A stretch of 64,000 nt of DNA, from the NCBI GenBank assembly GCA_944326425.1, contig CALVDX010000004.1, positions 62,001 through 126,000 of the forward strand, read 5' to 3'. Below the pieces are notes generated by a model. It did no database searches and had not been told where the DNA came from. It saw nothing but the letters and a program-made list of their open reading frames with translations. Position numbers and translations under genes: made by a program. Shown here piece by piece: positions 8,068 to 40,192 of this stretch (its first letter is position 1; the number at the start of each line of letters is the position of its first letter). The stretch comes from Candidatus Gastranaerophilales bacterium (lineage in GTDB: Bacteria > Cyanobacteriota > Vampirovibrionia > Gastranaerophilales > Gastranaerophilaceae).

Positions 8068-8823
8068 ATGAAAATTGATTTTTTACAATCAGAGAACAGA
8101 CTAAGGTCTAAGTCGCCTATGCAGAATATGTGTGCGGAGTGCAATATTCACCGAAAGAGTACGGCATTGTGTGACGAGAGATACAGTATAAATAATAATA
8201 GTAATGGCAGCGACATGAGGAATAATAATGTAGCTGCCATTAATTTTAAAGGCAAAGAAGTCGGCAAAATCAGTAAAGGTATTTTTAATTCCAAGTTGTT
8301 CAACAGAATGCTTATGTTTTTTGAAAATAAAACAGCGCTTGCGCAAAACGTTGTAGCACTTATTGTTGCCGGCGGTTTTCGTCCGGCTACAAACATATTG
8401 ATGGCCGGAAAAAATGATAAAGAAGATTCTTATCACGCAGCGGCACACGCGTTTTCATCAGCGGGTGTTGGTTTTGGTGTAACCTGCGCTGTGATGAAAC
8501 CTGTTACAGACGGAGTTAAACGTTTTAAAGATAATCCCGCTAAATACCTTAAACCCCAGATGGCATCATTCTACGGTATTGATTCTCTTGGCGCAAGAAA
8601 AGTTCAAACATCAAAGATATTTAAAAATACATGTAAACTTATTGAAATGATACCGGAAATTTCAATAGGTATCCCAAAGGCTATACTTACAATAGCGCTT
8701 ATTCCCCCGATATTAAAATACGCATTTGGTATTGAGAAAGGCGGCAGTAAAAATAAAACACCAGAAGCTGCCCCGAAAGCAGAACCGCAAAATGTGTCTG
8801 CTCCCGGAAAGGAGGTGGCATAA
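8068..8823 (+). CDS. Unrecognised protein with Asn-rich N-terminus and hydrophobic core; first of a coupled pair
   Basis: 251 aa; I do not recognise the family. Residues 1-60 are polar with four Cys (two near 18-21, others near 26 and 36) and an Asn/Ser run, then INFKGKEVGK near 60. The middle is alternately hydrophobic and small (VVALIVAGGFRP near 97; AFSSAGVGFGVTCAVMKP near 128; IPKAILTIALIPPILKY near 200) and could span or lie on a membrane. The C-terminal 20 residues are Pro/Ala/Lys rich. The stop overlaps the next ATG (TAATG), and the partner also carries an SFKGG motif after a polar N-terminus, so the two are probably functionally linked. AGAGG precedes the ATG. Confidence 0.7.
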   Translation: MKIDFLQSENRLRSKSPMQNMCAECNIHRKSTALCDERYSINNNSNGSDMRNNNVAAINFKGKEVGKISKGIFNSKLFNRMLMFFENKTALAQNVVALIVAGGFRPATNILMAGKNDKEDSYHAAAHAFSSAGVGFGVTCAVMKPVTDGVKRFKDNPAKYLKPQMASFYGIDSLGARKVQTSKIFKNTCKLIEMIPEISIGIPKAILTIALIPPILKYAFGIEKGGSKNKTPEAAPKAEPQNVSAPGKEVA

Positions 8824-10271
8824 TGAATCTTACTATCCAGCCTAAATTAGTTAATAATAACCCATATTTAAAAAATAACAGCAAGAGTTTTACTGATAAC
8901 AACAATTATGAAGAACCGTTGTCTCTTCAAAAATTGCCCAAGACTCAGTCCTTCAAAGGCGGTACTTATGACAGAGTAGTTGAAGGAATTGCTAAAAATT
9001 ATTACGGCAGTTTAATGCAGTCAGGTTTTATCAAATGGTTTGGTAAAAAGACCGAAAACATGAATATCGTAAATCTTTGTTCCGCTGTTAACTCGTTTAT
9101 TATTTCATTTATGTATGTAATTAAAACGCTTGAAAATGATAACCTTGACCCGGAAAGAAGAAATACTCTCGCAATCAATGACGGTATGACTTATATCGGC
9201 TCCACTGTTCTTGCTTATGCAATTGATAATAAACTTGCAGCAAAATGGAACAAGGTAACGCATAACTATGCGGCAACACAATTGGGGGCAACGCCGGATG
9301 AATTGCAGAAACTTATAAATGATGCTAATGAAAGACTCTTCTTCAAACAAATACAAATAGATGCAATTCAAAAGGCGAATGCAGCATTGCCTAAAGAAGC
9401 AAAAATCCCGTTAAAGCATGATATTGATATATTGATAGAAAATGCAGACGGTACACTAGATGATGCTGTTAAAACAACATTAAAAGATGATGTTAATAAT
9501 GCGATTGCTAAGGCTAATAAAAACCTTCCTAAAGATAAGCAGATTGCATTATTTGATGATGAAATTAAGAAAATAGTTGATAAATCGTATGAATTGTTGA
9601 ATGCTCCGGAAGGCAACAAAGGACTTCAAGACGATATCAACGCAGCATTGAAAAAAGTAAATTCAAAATTGCCGGAAGGGAAGAAAATACCGCTCACGGA
9701 AGATATTGAAAACGCTATTAAAAAAGCAAATGAAATCCTTTCTAAAGATAATAAGATTCCGTTTATAGACGAAATTAAAAAGGCATTTAAGAAAGCAAAC
9801 GAACTGCTTCCTGCATCTGCTAAGATAAAGCCGGAAAAAATTATTGCCAACGCGGAAGATTATACCCGTGATGTTATTAAAAACAGGGATCTCAACTTCA
9901 AAATCAAAGGTATGGGTATAGTAAAATCACTCTTTATCTTCGGTATGATTTACAGGTATGTAGTTCCTGTACTGATTATGAAACCGGCAAATAAACTGGG
10001 CGCCAAGTATAACGCAAGACATAAAAAACAAATGGAAGAACATAACAAAAAAATTGAAATGCTCAGGGAATTTGAGGCAAAAGAAGCTGCAATAAAAGAA
10101 CTTGAAGCAAAATTCAAAAAACTGAATAACGTAAATGCAGAAACGGGAAGTTCTAAATATATTAAACTTGACCCTAAAGTTCAAACTGCAGGAGCAAGCC
10201 CTGTTGTTGATAATTCCAAATACATTAAACTTGAGCCGGAAGGTTCAGAACAATTAGCGAATGCATCATAA
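8823..10271 (+). CDS. Unrecognised protein with tandem 23-residue helical repeats; second of a coupled pair
   Basis: 482 aa; no family recognised. An Asn-rich start leads to SFKGGTYDRVVEGI near residue 43, then two hydrophobic stretches (about 85-105 and 120-140). From about 180 to 340 there are five related repeats of the form aIxKANxxLPxxxKIPL; the last three have their D/E-I start at residues 271, 294 and 317, an exact 23-residue period. A hydrophobic segment near 365-385 (GIVKSLFIFGMIYRYVVPVLI) is followed by a charged coiled-coil-like tail with two copies of SKYIKL. Membrane attachment with a repetitive helical domain is inferred. A strong terminator follows. Confidence 0.7.
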   Translation: MNLTIQPKLVNNNPYLKNNSKSFTDNNNYEEPLSLQKLPKTQSFKGGTYDRVVEGIAKNYYGSLMQSGFIKWFGKKTENMNIVNLCSAVNSFIISFMYVIKTLENDNLDPERRNTLAINDGMTYIGSTVLAYAIDNKLAAKWNKVTHNYAATQLGATPDELQKLINDANERLFFKQIQIDAIQKANAALPKEAKIPLKHDIDILIENADGTLDDAVKTTLKDDVNNAIAKANKNLPKDKQIALFDDEIKKIVDKSYELLNAPEGNKGLQDDINAALKKVNSKLPEGKKIPLTEDIENAIKKANEILSKDNKIPFIDEIKKAFKKANELLPASAKIKPEKIIANAEDYTRDVIKNRDLNFKIKGMGIVKSLFIFGMIYRYVVPVLIMKPANKLGAKYNARHKKQMEEHNKKIEMLREFEAKEAAIKELEAKFKKLNNVNAETGSSKYIKLDPKVQTAGASPVVDNSKYIKLEPEGSEQLANAS

Positions 10272-10402: not shown

Positions 10403-10431
10403 TTGCAAAAATATTTTGTTCGGGCTATAAT
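10403..10431 (+). promoter_or_regulatory. adhE promoter
   Basis: TTGCAA (10403-10408), 17-bp spacer, perfect TATAAT (10426-10431). The predicted start site, about 10438, falls inside the Rex-type operator. Confidence 0.75.
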
Positions 10432-10435
10432 TAAA

Positions 10436-10453
10436 TCGTGAATAAAATCACGA
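10436..10453. promoter_or_regulatory. Rex-type operator overlapping the adhE transcription start
   Basis: Perfect inverted repeat TCGTGA-ATAAAA-TCACGA, 18 bp in all with a 6-bp AT-rich centre. The described Rex consensus is TTGTGA-N6-TCACAA; this site differs only by one symmetric substitution (second base of each half). A rex gene lies immediately downstream of adhE. Binding here would block transcription start. Confidence 0.7.
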
Positions 10454-10471
10454 AATAGGAGAATAGAAGAT

Positions 10472-13117
10472 ATGACTACAAAAACGAAGAAAACAGTTGA
10501 AAAGCTTGAAGAAGCTTTAAACCAACCTACTGTTGTTGAAACTGTTGAGCAGCTCGAAGGATTAATTTCCAGAGTAAAAAGGGCTCAAAAGATTTTTTCT
10601 ACTTTCTCTCAAGAAAAAGTAGATGCAATATTTAAAGCCGCAGCAACAGCTGCAGACAAAGCACGTATTCCTCTTGCAAGAATGGCTGTTGAAGAAACAG
10701 GCATGGGTGTTATGGAAGATAAAATCATTAAGAACCACTTTGCATCAGAATACATTTACAACAAACACAAAGAAGCAAAAACCTGCGGTATCATTAGAGA
10801 AGATAAGACCAACGGTATTAAGATTGTTGCTGAACCTCTCGGCGTTCTTGCAGGTATTGTTCCTACAACAAACCCGACTTCTACAGCAATATTCAAGTCT
10901 TTAATTTCATTAAAAACAAGAAACGGAATTATTTTCTCACCCCACCCGAGAGCAAAAAAATCTACAATTGCAGCAGCAAAATTAGTTCTTGATGCAGCAG
11001 TTGCAGCAGGTGCTCCGGCTGACATTATCGGCTGGATTGATGTTCCGTCTGTTGAACTTTCAGCAGCATTAATGAAACACCCTTCTGTTGATTGTATTTT
11101 AGCAACCGGCGGTCCGGGTATGGTTATGGCTGCGTACTCATCAGGCAAGCCGGCATTAGGTGTAGGTCCCGGCAACGTTCCTGCAATAATTGATGAAACC
11201 GCTGATATCCAAACAGCAGTATCTTCAATTATTTTGTCAAAAACATTTGATAACGGTATGATTTGTGCATCAGAACAATCTGTTATAATCGTTTCCGATG
11301 TATACGAACAAGTTAAGAAAGAGTTCCAATACAGAGGTGCTTATGTATTAAGCAAGGAAGAAGCAGACAAAGTTGCATCAATCATTCTTACACCGGCAGG
11401 CAGTGTTAACCCGAAAATCGTAGGTCAGCCTGCTCACACAATTGCAGAACTTGCAGGTATCAAGGTTCCTGAAAATACAAAAGTTCTTATTGGTGAAGAA
11501 AAAGAAGTTGCGGTTGAAAACCCGTTTGCACACGAAAAACTTTCTCCGCTTCTTGCAATGTATAAGGCTAAGAACTTTGAGGATGCTGTAGAAAAAGCGC
11601 ATGACCTTGTAATGCTTGGCGGCGCAGGCCACTCAGCAGCTCTTTACACTGATGCAAGAGTTCAAGACAGAATTGATTACTTTGCGGAAAGAATTCCTAC
11701 TTGCAGATTGTTAATCAACTCTCCATCTTCTCAAGGCGGTATCGGTGACTTATACAACTTCAAACTTGAACCGTCACTTACATTAGGCTGTGGGTCCTGG
11801 GGCGGCAACTCTGTAAGCGGTAACGTAGGAGTTGAAAACTTATTGAACTATAAAACAGTAGCTGAAAGGAGAGAAAATATGCTTTGGTTTAAAGTTCCGC
11901 CGAAAGTTTACTTCAAGAGAGGCGCTGTTGATTTAGCCCTTAAAGAACTTCAAGGCAGAAAACGTGCATTTATTGTTACAGACCGTTTCTTATTCAATTC
12001 AGGTGCTGTATATAATATTACTAACGTACTTGATTCAATCGGTATTGATTATCAAATCTTCTTTGATGTAAAACCGGATCCAACCCTTTCTACTATCAAT
12101 GAAGCAATGGCTATGATTAAACCGTATGAACCTGATATCTTTATTGCACTTGGCGGCGGTTCTCCGATGGATGCGGCTAAGATTATGTGGTTAATGTATG
12201 AACAGCCTGACACGGTATTTGAAGATATCTCTATGAGATTTATGGATATCAGAAAGAGAATCTGTCAAATCCCTGAACTTGGCAAGAAAGCAACAATGGT
12301 TGCAATTCCTACAACATCAGGTACCGGTTCGGAAGTTACACCGTTTGCAATTATTACAGATGATGAAACCCACGTTAAGTATGCAATTGCTGATTACGCG
12401 CTTACACCTAACATGGCAATCATTGACCCGAACTTTGTTGACGGTATGCCCAAAGGCTTAACTTCAGCATCAGGTATTGACGCATTAGTTCACGCAATTG
12501 AAGCTTATGTTTCATCAATGGCTACAAACTTTACAAATTCTAACGCTTTAGAAGCTTGTAAGTTAGTATTCAAATACCTTGAACGTTCATATAATGACGG
12601 TGCTAAGGATCCTATCGCAAGAGAAAAGATGCACTATGCTGCAACTATTGCAGGTATGGCATTTGCAAACGCATTCTTAGGACTTTGCCACTCTATGGCA
12701 CACAAACTCGGTGCTATGTTTAACGTTCCTCACGGGGTTGCAAACGCATTGTTAATCAGACAGGTAATCAAATACAACTCTACTGATTGCCCGCATAAAC
12801 AATGTATCTTCCCGCAATACAAGTTCCCGTCGGCTAAATTAAGATACAGTCAAATTGCTGATGAATTAGGACTTGGCGGTAAGAATGAAGATGAAAAAGT
12901 TCAACTTCTTATCAATGCGGTTGATAACCTGATGGGCAACATCGGACTGCCGAAATCTATCAAAGACTTTGGTGTATCAGAAGCAGACTTCTATGCTAAG
13001 TTGGATGAAATGGTTGAATTGGCATTTGACGATCAATGTACAGGTGCTAACCCGGCTTATCCTTTGATGGAAGATATCAAGAAAATCTACATCGATGCGT
13101 TCAACGGTGTTGTGTAG
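10472..13117 (+). CDS. adhE: Bifunctional acetaldehyde-CoA/alcohol dehydrogenase
   Basis: 881 aa, full AdhE length. The N-terminal aldehyde dehydrogenase half has the catalytic Cys in NGMICASEQS (about residue 265) and nucleotide-binding VGPGNVPA; the C-terminal iron-dependent alcohol dehydrogenase half has GGGSPMDAAK near 561 and the iron-ligand region HSMAHKLGAMFNVPHGVANA near 745. It reduces acetyl-CoA to ethanol in two steps and regenerates two NAD+; AdhE usually forms cytoplasmic spirosome filaments. AGGAG lies 10 bp before the ATG. A promoter and a Rex-type operator precede it and a strong terminator follows, so it is a single-gene unit under NADH/NAD+ control. Confidence 0.97.
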   Translation: MTTKTKKTVEKLEEALNQPTVVETVEQLEGLISRVKRAQKIFSTFSQEKVDAIFKAAATAADKARIPLARMAVEETGMGVMEDKIIKNHFASEYIYNKHKEAKTCGIIREDKTNGIKIVAEPLGVLAGIVPTTNPTSTAIFKSLISLKTRNGIIFSPHPRAKKSTIAAAKLVLDAAVAAGAPADIIGWIDVPSVELSAALMKHPSVDCILATGGPGMVMAAYSSGKPALGVGPGNVPAIIDETADIQTAVSSIILSKTFDNGMICASEQSVIIVSDVYEQVKKEFQYRGAYVLSKEEADKVASIILTPAGSVNPKIVGQPAHTIAELAGIKVPENTKVLIGEEKEVAVENPFAHEKLSPLLAMYKAKNFEDAVEKAHDLVMLGGAGHSAALYTDARVQDRIDYFAERIPTCRLLINSPSSQGGIGDLYNFKLEPSLTLGCGSWGGNSVSGNVGVENLLNYKTVAERRENMLWFKVPPKVYFKRGAVDLALKELQGRKRAFIVTDRFLFNSGAVYNITNVLDSIGIDYQIFFDVKPDPTLSTINEAMAMIKPYEPDIFIALGGGSPMDAAKIMWLMYEQPDTVFEDISMRFMDIRKRICQIPELGKKATMVAIPTTSGTGSEVTPFAIITDDETHVKYAIADYALTPNMAIIDPNFVDGMPKGLTSASGIDALVHAIEAYVSSMATNFTNSNALEACKLVFKYLERSYNDGAKDPIAREKMHYAATIAGMAFANAFLGLCHSMAHKLGAMFNVPHGVANALLIRQVIKYNSTDCPHKQCIFPQYKFPSAKLRYSQIADELGLGGKNEDEKVQLLINAVDNLMGNIGLPKSIKDFGVSEADFYAKLDEMVELAFDDQCTGANPAYPLMEDIKKIYIDAFNGVV

Positions 13118-13136: not shown

Positions 13137-13163
13137 GGCGGGGAAATTTCCCCGCCCTTTTTA
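13137..13163 (+). terminator. Rho-independent terminator of adhE
   Basis: GGCGGGG, AAATTT loop, CCCCGCC, then a T run. Very stable GC stem in an AT-rich background. Confidence 0.92.
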
Positions 13164-13270: not shown

Positions 13271-13885
13271 ATGGCAAAAAAAATTTCTGATAAAACAATA
13301 AACAGGTTAACTTTGTATCATTGTATCTTGACTGATTGTATACGAAAGGGGATTGACAGCATATCATCTACAACAATAGCCGGCTTACTGCGTATAGATG
13401 ACTCTCAGGTGAGAAAAGATATTGCAATGCTTGATAATACCGGTAAGTCACGTGTCGGGTATGATGTTAAAGACTTGAAATCGGCTATTGAACATAATTT
13501 AGCGTTTAGTAAAGTTAAAAATGTATTTATTGTAGGAGCTGGTAATTTAGGTTTTGCACTTGCTAAATATAATAATTTTTCAAATTACGGCTTAAATATT
13601 CTTGCATTGTTTGATAATAATCCGCTGAAACACGATGTGGAAGTAGGCGGCAAAAAGGTTTATCCTATTGAAGATTTGAAAGGACAGGCGCGCAAAATGG
13701 ATGTTGATATAGCAATCCTTACTGTCCCTTATAATGCTGCGCAGCAAGTTACTGATTACATGGTAGAGGCAGGAATAAAATATATCTGGAACTTTACGCC
13801 GGTTGTGCTTGCCGTTCCGGATGATGTTCAGGTTTGGAATGAAAATTTAATGGGAAATTTCCTGCAATTTACATACAGCAAATAA
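13271..13885 (+). CDS. rex: Redox-sensing transcriptional repressor Rex
   Basis: 204 aa, normal Rex length. Residues 1-80 form the winged-helix DNA-binding domain, with SSTTIAGLLRIDDSQVRKDIA as the recognition region; GAGNLG at 89-94 is the NAD(H)-binding loop of the Rossmann domain, followed by LFDNNP at the end of strand two. Rex leaves DNA when NADH is high and then lets fermentation genes such as adhE be expressed. GGTGAG precedes the ATG. It lies between adhE and hydG, both plausible targets. A near-palindrome ATTG(A)AAGCTT(A)CAAT at 13233-13248 lies in its upstream region but does not match a Rex site. Confidence 0.95.
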   Translation: MAKKISDKTINRLTLYHCILTDCIRKGIDSISSTTIAGLLRIDDSQVRKDIAMLDNTGKSRVGYDVKDLKSAIEHNLAFSKVKNVFIVGAGNLGFALAKYNNFSNYGLNILALFDNNPLKHDVEVGGKKVYPIEDLKGQARKMDVDIAILTVPYNAAQQVTDYMVEAGIKYIWNFTPVVLAVPDDVQVWNENLMGNFLQFTYSK

Positions 13886-13946: not shown

Positions 13947-15362
13947 ATGTATAATCCTAAATCTGCTAAAGCAGAAGAATTTATTTCGCACGAAGAAATC
14001 TTAGATACTTTAGAGTGGGCGGATAAAAATAAAAATAATGAAGAATTAATTAATAAAGTTCTTGATAAAGCAAGACTGAGAAAGGGGCTGGACCATAGAG
14101 AAGCGTCTTTACTTCTTGCATGTGAAATAGAGCCTAAAAATCAGGAGCTTTACGCTCTTGCCCGTGAAATAAAAGAGGATTATTATGGAAACAGGATAGT
14201 TTTGTTTGCGCCGCTTTATCTTTCAAACTATTGTGTAAACGGATGTATTTACTGTCCTTACCACAAGAAGAATACCCATATCCCGCGAAAAAAAATGACT
14301 CAGGAGGAAATAAGACGCGAAGTTATTGCACTTCAGGATATGGGGCATAAAAGGCTTGCAATAGAAGCCGGCGAAGATCCTGTTAATAATCCTATTGAAT
14401 ATATTCTTGAATCAATAAAAACTATTTACGAAACAAAACATAAAAACGGAAGTATTAGACGTATAAATGTAAACATTGCCGCTACGACCGTGGAAAATTA
14501 CAGACGTTTAAAAGAGGCACAAATCGGTACTTATGTTTTGTTTCAGGAAACGTATCATAAAGAAAGCTATGAGCGCCTGCACCCGACAGGGCCGAAACAC
14601 AATTATGCGTATCACACAGAGGCAATGGACAGGGCAATGCAGGGCGGAATTGATGATGTTAGCCTCGGGGTTTTGTTTGGTTTAGAGCGTTATAAATACG
14701 AATTTGCCGGACTTTTAATGCACGCTGAGCACTTAGAAGCTGTTTACGGTGTAGGACCGCATGCGATAAGCGTACCTAGAATTAAGAAGGCGGATGATAT
14801 CGATCCTTCTGCATTTGAAAATGGTATTGATGACGATACTTTTGCTAAAATTGTTGCTTGTATCAGAGTTTCTACCCCGTATACCGGTATGATAATTTCA
14901 ACCAGAGAAAGTCAAAAAAGCCGTGAAAGAGTACTTGAATTGGGTGTTTCCCAAATAAGCGGCGGTTCAAGAACGAGTGTCGGCGGATATACTGAACAGG
15001 TGTATGAGGAAGATACAGCACAGTTTGATATAAGTGACAGGCGTTCGCTTGATGAGGTTGTTGCTTGGCTGCTTAAACTCGGGCATATTCCCAGTTTTTG
15101 TACAGCTTGCTATTCTTCTCACAGGACAGGTGAAAGTTTTATGGCTGTTTGTAAGAATGAGCAAATCCATAATTTTTGTACACCAAACGGCTTGATGACT
15201 TTAAAAGAATACCTGCTTGATTATGCATCTCCTGAAACTAAAAAACTAGGATTTGAAGCTATTGACCGTGAATTGAAAAAATTTCCGGAGGGGGCTATGA
15301 AAGATGCTCTTTTGAAAAATCTTGACTTGATTTCAAGCGGCGGAAGAAATTATAAATTTTAG
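13947..15362 (+). CDS. hydG: [FeFe] hydrogenase H-cluster radical SAM maturase HydG
   Basis: 471 aa from ATG at 13947, chosen because GGAGGG lies just upstream and the protein then begins MYNPKSAKAEEF, as HydG proteins do; an in-frame ATG at 13905 would add 14 unrelated residues. The radical SAM cluster motif is CVNGCIYC (C96, C100, C103). The C-terminal CTAC...C has CX2CX22C spacing (about C385, C388, C411), the hallmark of the second Fe-S cluster in HydG. It cleaves tyrosine to make the CO and CN ligands of the H-cluster. It follows rex by about 60 bp, probably in one transcript. hydE and hydF are not in the window. Confidence 0.95.
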   Translation: MYNPKSAKAEEFISHEEILDTLEWADKNKNNEELINKVLDKARLRKGLDHREASLLLACEIEPKNQELYALAREIKEDYYGNRIVLFAPLYLSNYCVNGCIYCPYHKKNTHIPRKKMTQEEIRREVIALQDMGHKRLAIEAGEDPVNNPIEYILESIKTIYETKHKNGSIRRINVNIAATTVENYRRLKEAQIGTYVLFQETYHKESYERLHPTGPKHNYAYHTEAMDRAMQGGIDDVSLGVLFGLERYKYEFAGLLMHAEHLEAVYGVGPHAISVPRIKKADDIDPSAFENGIDDDTFAKIVACIRVSTPYTGMIISTRESQKSRERVLELGVSQISGGSRTSVGGYTEQVYEEDTAQFDISDRRSLDEVVAWLLKLGHIPSFCTACYSSHRTGESFMAVCKNEQIHNFCTPNGLMTLKEYLLDYASPETKKLGFEAIDRELKKFPEGAMKDALLKNLDLISSGGRNYKF

Positions 15363-38731: not shown

Positions 38732-40192
38732 TTAATCGTTTCTTTCCAGATTTTTGCTGTTATCAAGTAATGTTTTTAACTCCTTTTTTGCGACGCGCGG
38801 AATGTTTATAGTCGCATTTCCTCCTATGCATCCGCCTTCACAGCACATTACTTCTACAAGGTTACATCCCGGACAGCTTTTATTTTTTGCAAAAGTTTTT
38901 AACTCTTTGGCTGTATCCTTGGTAAGTCCGCTAATTATATACGGTTTAACCTCTTCCGGATTTTTACATACTGATTTAACAGCCTCCGCAACTCCGGTAG
39001 TTACTCCGAAATTTCTGCCTTGTTTAGAGCTTTCTGTATCAAATTTTTCTTCTTCACATTCGGCAATTTCAATTCTTTTTGCAATAAAAAGTGCACCGAG
39101 TTCTTCATAAGTCATAACGTAGTCAACATTAGGATTTTCCATTGACTCTTTACGTTTTGCCACACACGGGCTTATAAATACAGTAATCGCATCAGGGTAT
39201 TTTTTCTTAACGATTTCTGCAATGTAATAAAGCGGTGTTTCAGTTGTAGATTTAAACTCCTGAATTTCCGGAAGATGTTTTTTTACAAACTGGTTATATC
39301 CGGCACAGCACGAAGTTGTCATAAAAGGTGCGCCGTGTTCCATTCTTTCTTCAAATTCTTTGGCTTCATTCAGTGTAGTTACATCAGCACCTTGCGCTAC
39401 TTCAAATACTTCGTAAAACCCTGCTTTTTTCATTGCCGTTTTTAACTGATAAATACTGCCGGGAAGTTGTCCTATAATAGAAGGTGCAACCATTGCAATA
39501 ACTTTTTTAGAGCCGGACTTGATGTATTTCAGGATATCAATAATCTGGCTTTTTTCGTGCACTGCGCCGAACGGACAGGCTGCAACGCACTTGCCGCAAG
39601 TAATACACTGTTCAAAGTCAATTCTTGTAATACCGTTTGCATCTTTTTGGATGGCGCCTACAGGGCAGGCATCTTCGCAAGGAACTGCAAGTTTTACAAT
39701 AGCGTTGTAAGGGCAGGCATTCATACACATTTTACAGCTTTTGCACTTACTGCCGTCAATTTTTGATTTGCCGTCAACCATTTCTATTGCGCCAAATTTA
39801 CAAGCTGCCTGACAAGGGCGGGCGACGCAGCCTTTGCATAAATCGGTTACATAAATACGGCTTGGAACACAGCCTGCACAGGCTGCATCGAGGACTGTTA
39901 ACGGGTTTTCATCAACTTTTTCCCTCTCAACAGCTTCTCTTGCATAATCTGATAAAAGCTTGTATTCAATATCATCTTCTAGTGCAAACCCTAAACCTGC
40001 TTTTACCCTCTCTTTTAATATGGCTCTTTCTTTGTAAATACAGCATCTGTATGGTACATCGGCACCCTTTGGCCTCATATCATAAGGTATAAGTCGGGTA
40101 TTTTCTTCGTAATTATCTGAAAAAAATGCTTCTATTATTCTTGCTAAAATCTCTTTCTTTAAATGTATTGATTGACTATTATTGTTTCCCAT
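38732..40192 (-). CDS. Monomeric [FeFe] hydrogenase (group B-like)
   Basis: 486 aa. Three ferredoxin-type clusters precede the catalytic domain (CKGCVARPCQAAC near 119; CKSCKMCMNACP near 144; CITCGKCVAACP near 190). The H-cluster motifs are TSCCAGY (about 292-298), SPCVAKRKE (about 341-349) and VMCCEGGCIGG (about 444-454). L1 has Ala where the classic TSCCP has Pro; both Cys are kept. The short size and the GG-NAT end of L3 fit group B rather than group A1; this assignment is tentative. It evolves or oxidises H2 using ferredoxin in the cytoplasm and needs HydG. Its start overlaps the 2Fe-2S protein gene by 14 bp. Confidence 0.93.
   Translation of the reverse strand: MGNNNSQSIHLKKEILARIIEAFFSDNYEENTRLIPYDMRPKGADVPYRCCIYKERAILKERVKAGLGFALEDDIEYKLLSDYAREAVEREKVDENPLTVLDAACAGCVPSRIYVTDLCKGCVARPCQAACKFGAIEMVDGKSKIDGSKCKSCKMCMNACPYNAIVKLAVPCEDACPVGAIQKDANGITRIDFEQCITCGKCVAACPFGAVHEKSQIIDILKYIKSGSKKVIAMVAPSIIGQLPGSIYQLKTAMKKAGFYEVFEVAQGADVTTLNEAKEFEERMEHGAPFMTTSCCAGYNQFVKKHLPEIQEFKSTTETPLYYIAEIVKKKYPDAITVFISPCVAKRKESMENPNVDYVMTYEELGALFIAKRIEIAECEEEKFDTESSKQGRNFGVTTGVAEAVKSVCKNPEEVKPYIISGLTKDTAKELKTFAKNKSCPGCNLVEVMCCEGGCIGGNATINIPRVAKKELKTLLDNSKNLERND

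Follow-up and report, generated by a model that had tools for sequence, protein, structure and literature searches.

In the portions available of two published studies, the consensus of the Rex operator (ROP) of Gram-positive bacteria is given as TTGTGAANNNNTTCACAA (PMC5355995, PMC6391272). In one of these, again as far as the text was available, Rex of Streptomyces avermitilis protected an atpI region containing TTGTGATACGGTTCACGA in a footprint and gel-shifted a probe of the hppA promoter, for which Table 1 lists the site TCGTGAATCAATTCACGA, so that contact with that particular site is read from the listing (PMC5355995). Predicted Rex sites of Thermoanaerobacterium saccharolyticum take the form TTGTTA-N6-TAACNN and lie at adhE and hydG in the excerpts of a further report (PMC5886521), and hydG is described as a validated or predicted Rex target in other bacteria in the parts available of two of these papers (PMC6391272, PMC5886521).

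We studied a predicted Rex operator upstream of adhE in a 64-kb window (64,000 nucleotides; G000:C4:62001-126000) from the 2.0 Mb genome of a gut bacterium belonging to the Gastranaerophilales (G000), where the gene order is adhE, a terminator-like hairpin, rex and hydG. The features of the window are as follows.

10403-10408, + strand: -35 hexamer TTGCAA of the adhE promoter; its CACTTG(C) context recurs in most aligned family upstreams
10426-10431, + strand: -10 hexamer TATAAT of the adhE promoter, separated by a 17-bp spacer from the -35 hexamer
10436-10453, + strand: predicted Rex operator TCGTGAATAAAATCACGA (arms TCGTGA and TCACGA around ATAAAA), covering the predicted transcription start; from same-genus (6/6) and family comparison
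10457-10461, + strand: probable ribosome-binding site AGGAG, read from the sequence
10472-13117, + strand: adhE, bifunctional acetaldehyde-CoA/alcohol dehydrogenase (NF010378, 1397 bits against a cut-off of 951)
13137-13156, no strand assigned: terminator-like hairpin in the adhE-rex gap, with a T-rich tail on the + side
13271-13885, + strand: rex, redox-sensing repressor (PF06971 and PF02629; GAGNLG loop)
13950-15362, + strand: hydG, [FeFe]-hydrogenase maturase, 64 bases past rex (TIGR03955, 861 bits against a cut-off of 312)
38732-40192: a further [FeFe]-hydrogenase-like protein of 486 residues (PF02906), separate from two on contig C9

Upstream of adhE there is also a 482-residue frame (8823-10271) with repeated KAN..LPK..KIPL-type stretches, for which we found no Pfam or NCBIfam match.

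The operator begins 4 bp past the -10 box, and since transcription is expected to start some 7 nucleotides past that box, the predicted start is at about 10438, within the left arm. The first-pass annotation had placed the word exactly on the transcription start of adhE, at a promoter with a 17-bp spacer and with rex as the next gene; the promoter and the gene order agree with this and the word does cover the start, whose position is itself a prediction from the -10 box. It had also called the word a perfect 18-bp inverted repeat with the half-site length and spacing of Rex operators. The 6-bp arms are indeed complementary and separated by N6 as described; the spacer and the flanks are not palindromic, and the repeat is thus confined to the arms.

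Compared with the Gram-positive ROP, as given in the portions of those papers available, the site shares the 6-bp arms, the N6 spacing, the G-T-G-A core and the overlap with a promoter, and adhE is among the ROP targets. Judged as an inverted repeat of TTGTGA half-sites, it departs from the consensus at two of its 12 arm bases, position 2 being C and position 17 G, and the T just inside the right half-site of the ROP (T-TCAC) is an A here. The closest described match is the site listed for hppA in the available part of the S. avermitilis study, which has identical arms and spacing, though the spacer letters, the target gene and the phylum all differ. The T. saccharolyticum sites, in the excerpts of that report, have the same layout, but their half-site change is at position 5 rather than position 2, and adhE has two sites and hydG a single one there, compared to one site in all here.

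The product of rex scores above curated cut-offs for both the winged-helix N-terminal domain (PF06971, 52.3 bits against 27) and the Rossmann NAD(H)-binding domain (PF02629, 74.8 against 22.3), as well as for NF003994 (225 against 130), and can be aligned with solved Rex structures. It is the one Rex homologue of this genome, and among named records the gene has its best relatives in an uncultured-bacterium bin, at 99% identity, and in Candidatus Gastranaerophilales assemblies, at 90–97%.

To compare relatives we examined the adhE upstreams of 99 of the 137 adhE-bearing genomes among 146 searched, leaving four duplicate or fragmentary adhE genes (G008b, G046b, G012b and G069b) out of the counts and assigning rex-adhE linkage by hand from gene coordinates. 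Absence of the word from related adhE upstreams had been named at the outset as evidence against an operator. Instead, the exact word is found there in 6/6 genomes of its own genus, and the variant TNGTGA-N6-TCACRA (second base free, position 17 G or A) in 66/94 genomes, compared to 0.02 on average, and never more than 1, in 100 rounds of dinucleotide shuffling. The aligned sequences show a recurrent promoter layout of a CACTTG-type -35, an A/T-rich -10, 4 bp and the operator, with the gap of 4 bp in 50 of the 66 genomes that have the site. In two genomes (G033 and G064) the site picked by our script was a second one near -202 instead of that at the promoter (-36). Four upstreams of genera g6 and g33 (L119, L120, L143 and L144) have, besides the site at about -36, another Rex-like one near -190 to -205 (for instance TTGTGAAAAAAATCACAA in L144); such pairs might permit looping.

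Presence of the site follows presence of the regulator: it lies at the same promoter in 63/88 Rex-positive relatives, against 3/11 Rex-negative ones (Fisher p = 0.006, relatedness ignored). The site persists in 45/48 genomes with rex unlinked to adhE, and is therefore not simply a feature of the linked operon. Where rex lies beside adhE the exact site is kept in only 16/38, and of the 25/88 Rex-positive genomes that lack it, 22 have the two genes adjoining; several of these Rex-positive genomes keep weaker forms at the same place, such as TAGAGA...TCACGA. Within genera, the expected contrast (at least one Rex-positive member with the site, a Rex-negative member without) is seen in g3, g19 and g21; g8 and g23 break it through G045 and G058, which retain the site but have no detectable rex. 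The Rex-negative genomes with a good site are these two (99% and 94% complete) and G004 (75%); the sites in G045 and G058 (upstreams L061 and L138) may reflect recent loss of rex, an assembly gap or another binder. It is on this comparison with relatives, in which the site and its spacing are conserved and occur together with rex, that we identify the word as very probably a Rex operator on the adhE promoter, as the first-pass annotation had proposed.

The evidence for an operator is in the placement of the word and not in its bare frequency. Some 1.13 matches with up to two mismatches are expected by chance in the 64-kb window, and the exact pattern has 13 forward matches in the 146 family genomes compared to 10 for a backwards control, so that the word by itself is not enriched. 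Eleven of the 13, however, sit just upstream of adhE, in all six genomes of the genus and in five of six sampled from genus g10; the remaining two (G098 and G126) are on contigs other than that of adhE.

The same half-site layout is shared by CRP/FNR proteins, and TGTGA-N6-TCACA is the CRP consensus too, so a regulator of that type could in principle bind here; some relatives, G058 among them, have HTH_Crp_2 proteins above the cut-off. Profile searches of G000 gave no match to the cNMP-binding domain (PF00027) and only a 150-residue frame at 24.6 bits for HTH_Crp_2 (PF13545), below the cut-off of 27. Since no protein with a cNMP-binding domain is detectable in this genome, since the placement over the start site fits a repressor and since the site tracks rex, we regard a CRP/FNR binder as highly improbable. 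The co-occurrence with rex also argues against the repeat acting as an RNA hairpin at the beginning of the adhE transcript, although TTGTGA...TCACGA can pair in RNA with one U-G wobble. With the predicted start inside the left arm only four pairs are left, and the leader from 10438 folds into a 4-bp stem of -3.3 kcal/mol (z -1.85; matched or exceeded in stability by 12 of 200 shuffles), while in several genera TAGTGA or TAGAGA left halves break the pairing with the promoter context kept. We thus give the RNA reading very little chance, and the Rex operator is the reading followed below.

The departures from TTGTGA had been taken as a symmetric, lineage-specific change pointing to co-evolved DNA recognition, in which the Rex of this genus would prefer TCGTGA over TTGTGA. 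Both arms are TCGTGA in 6/6 genomes of the genus, its Rex is divergent (at most 68% identical to those of other genera) and three residues of the N-terminal domain (R25, S30 and T34) set it apart from TTGTGA genomes. The family does not bear the idea out. Weighted by genus over 32 genera, position 17 carries G in 25.2 against A in 6.5, and at position 2 T accounts for 20.5, A for 8.2 and C for 3.0; as the promoter-distal TCACGA is the family norm, any change in the genus is confined to the proximal half, whose TCGTGA is common to a second genus, g10. R25, S30 and T34 separate this genus alone, are not part of the recognition helix and are all absent from g10, which has the same operator arms. 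Within the helix (QVRKD), Q46, R48, K49 and D50 are invariant in 73/73 Rex proteins, and the DNA-binding domain has no column that separates the 11 proteins of the two TCGTGA genera (g1, the genus studied here, and g10) from 25 of TTGTGA genomes. Finally, the hppA probe bound by S. avermitilis Rex has the same arms, which, as far as the available text goes, places the variant within the range that a Rex protein accepts (PMC5355995). Altered recognition is accordingly very unlikely, and the C and G at positions 2 and 17 would be tolerated half-site variation readable by the conserved Rex of the family. As judged from sequence, the operator is ordinary in kind, and its unusual letter is very probably not a newly evolved recognition code.

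We looked for further copies in the same genome. TYGTGANNNNNNTCACRA with up to one mismatch gives nine sites compared to 20 for the backwards control, and no other copy is intergenic, the remaining eight all falling within open frames of 150 residues or more. A looser search gives 22 sites, one exact and 21 with two mismatches, of which 10 were inspected with their loci, plus three more. Open frames of 80 residues or more contain eight of the nine inexact sites with loci; the ninth (L006) has no frame of that size, and its minus strand carries a short infA-like frame, read by eye. The genome has three [FeFe]-hydrogenase-like genes, and the first-pass annotation had suggested looking for the word at such genes. 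We scanned the contig C9 region between divergent genes, which is probably the upstream region of the HydABC-like genes as well as of the second hydrogenase-like gene on that contig (the intervening genes were read in part), and the region before the window's own hydA-like gene. A weight matrix built from 31 other genera scored nothing above zero in these two hydrogenase upstreams, in the adhE-rex gap or in the rex-hydG gap, and the word is thus lacking from the hydrogenase promoters checked in this genome. One tentative picture, which we put forward as a possibility less probable than its opposite, is that the family has an asymmetric adhE operator in a fixed orientation (the distal TCACGA near-constant, the start-site half TTGTGA, TCGTGA, TAGTGA or TAGAGA) and that Rex is here mostly a one-site adhE switch and not a global regulator.

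By analogy with known Rex systems, at a low NADH/NAD+ ratio a Rex dimer would sit on the operator and block RNA polymerase at the adhE start; on a rise in NADH it would take up NADH and leave the DNA, adhE would be transcribed, and the formation of ethanol through AdhE would re-oxidise NADH and restore NAD+. Our literature search found no paper on Rex in Melainabacteria, and for Gastranaerophilales and Rex it returned only microbiota and gut-profile studies, as judged by title and the start of the abstract; 'Rex' is absent from the main text, in the part available, of a study of Gastranaerophilales fermentation and hydrogenases (PMC4040986). The adhE operator of these bacteria therefore appears to be undescribed in the literature searched, though its kind is well known and it opens no new mechanism. 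For the Gastranaerophilales, an order known largely from assembled metagenomes, it provides a well-supported predicted site of fermentation control. It also indicates that the second base of the Rex half-site varies while the recognition helix stays the same, a variation to be allowed for when predicting Rex regulons in the non-photosynthetic relatives of Cyanobacteria.
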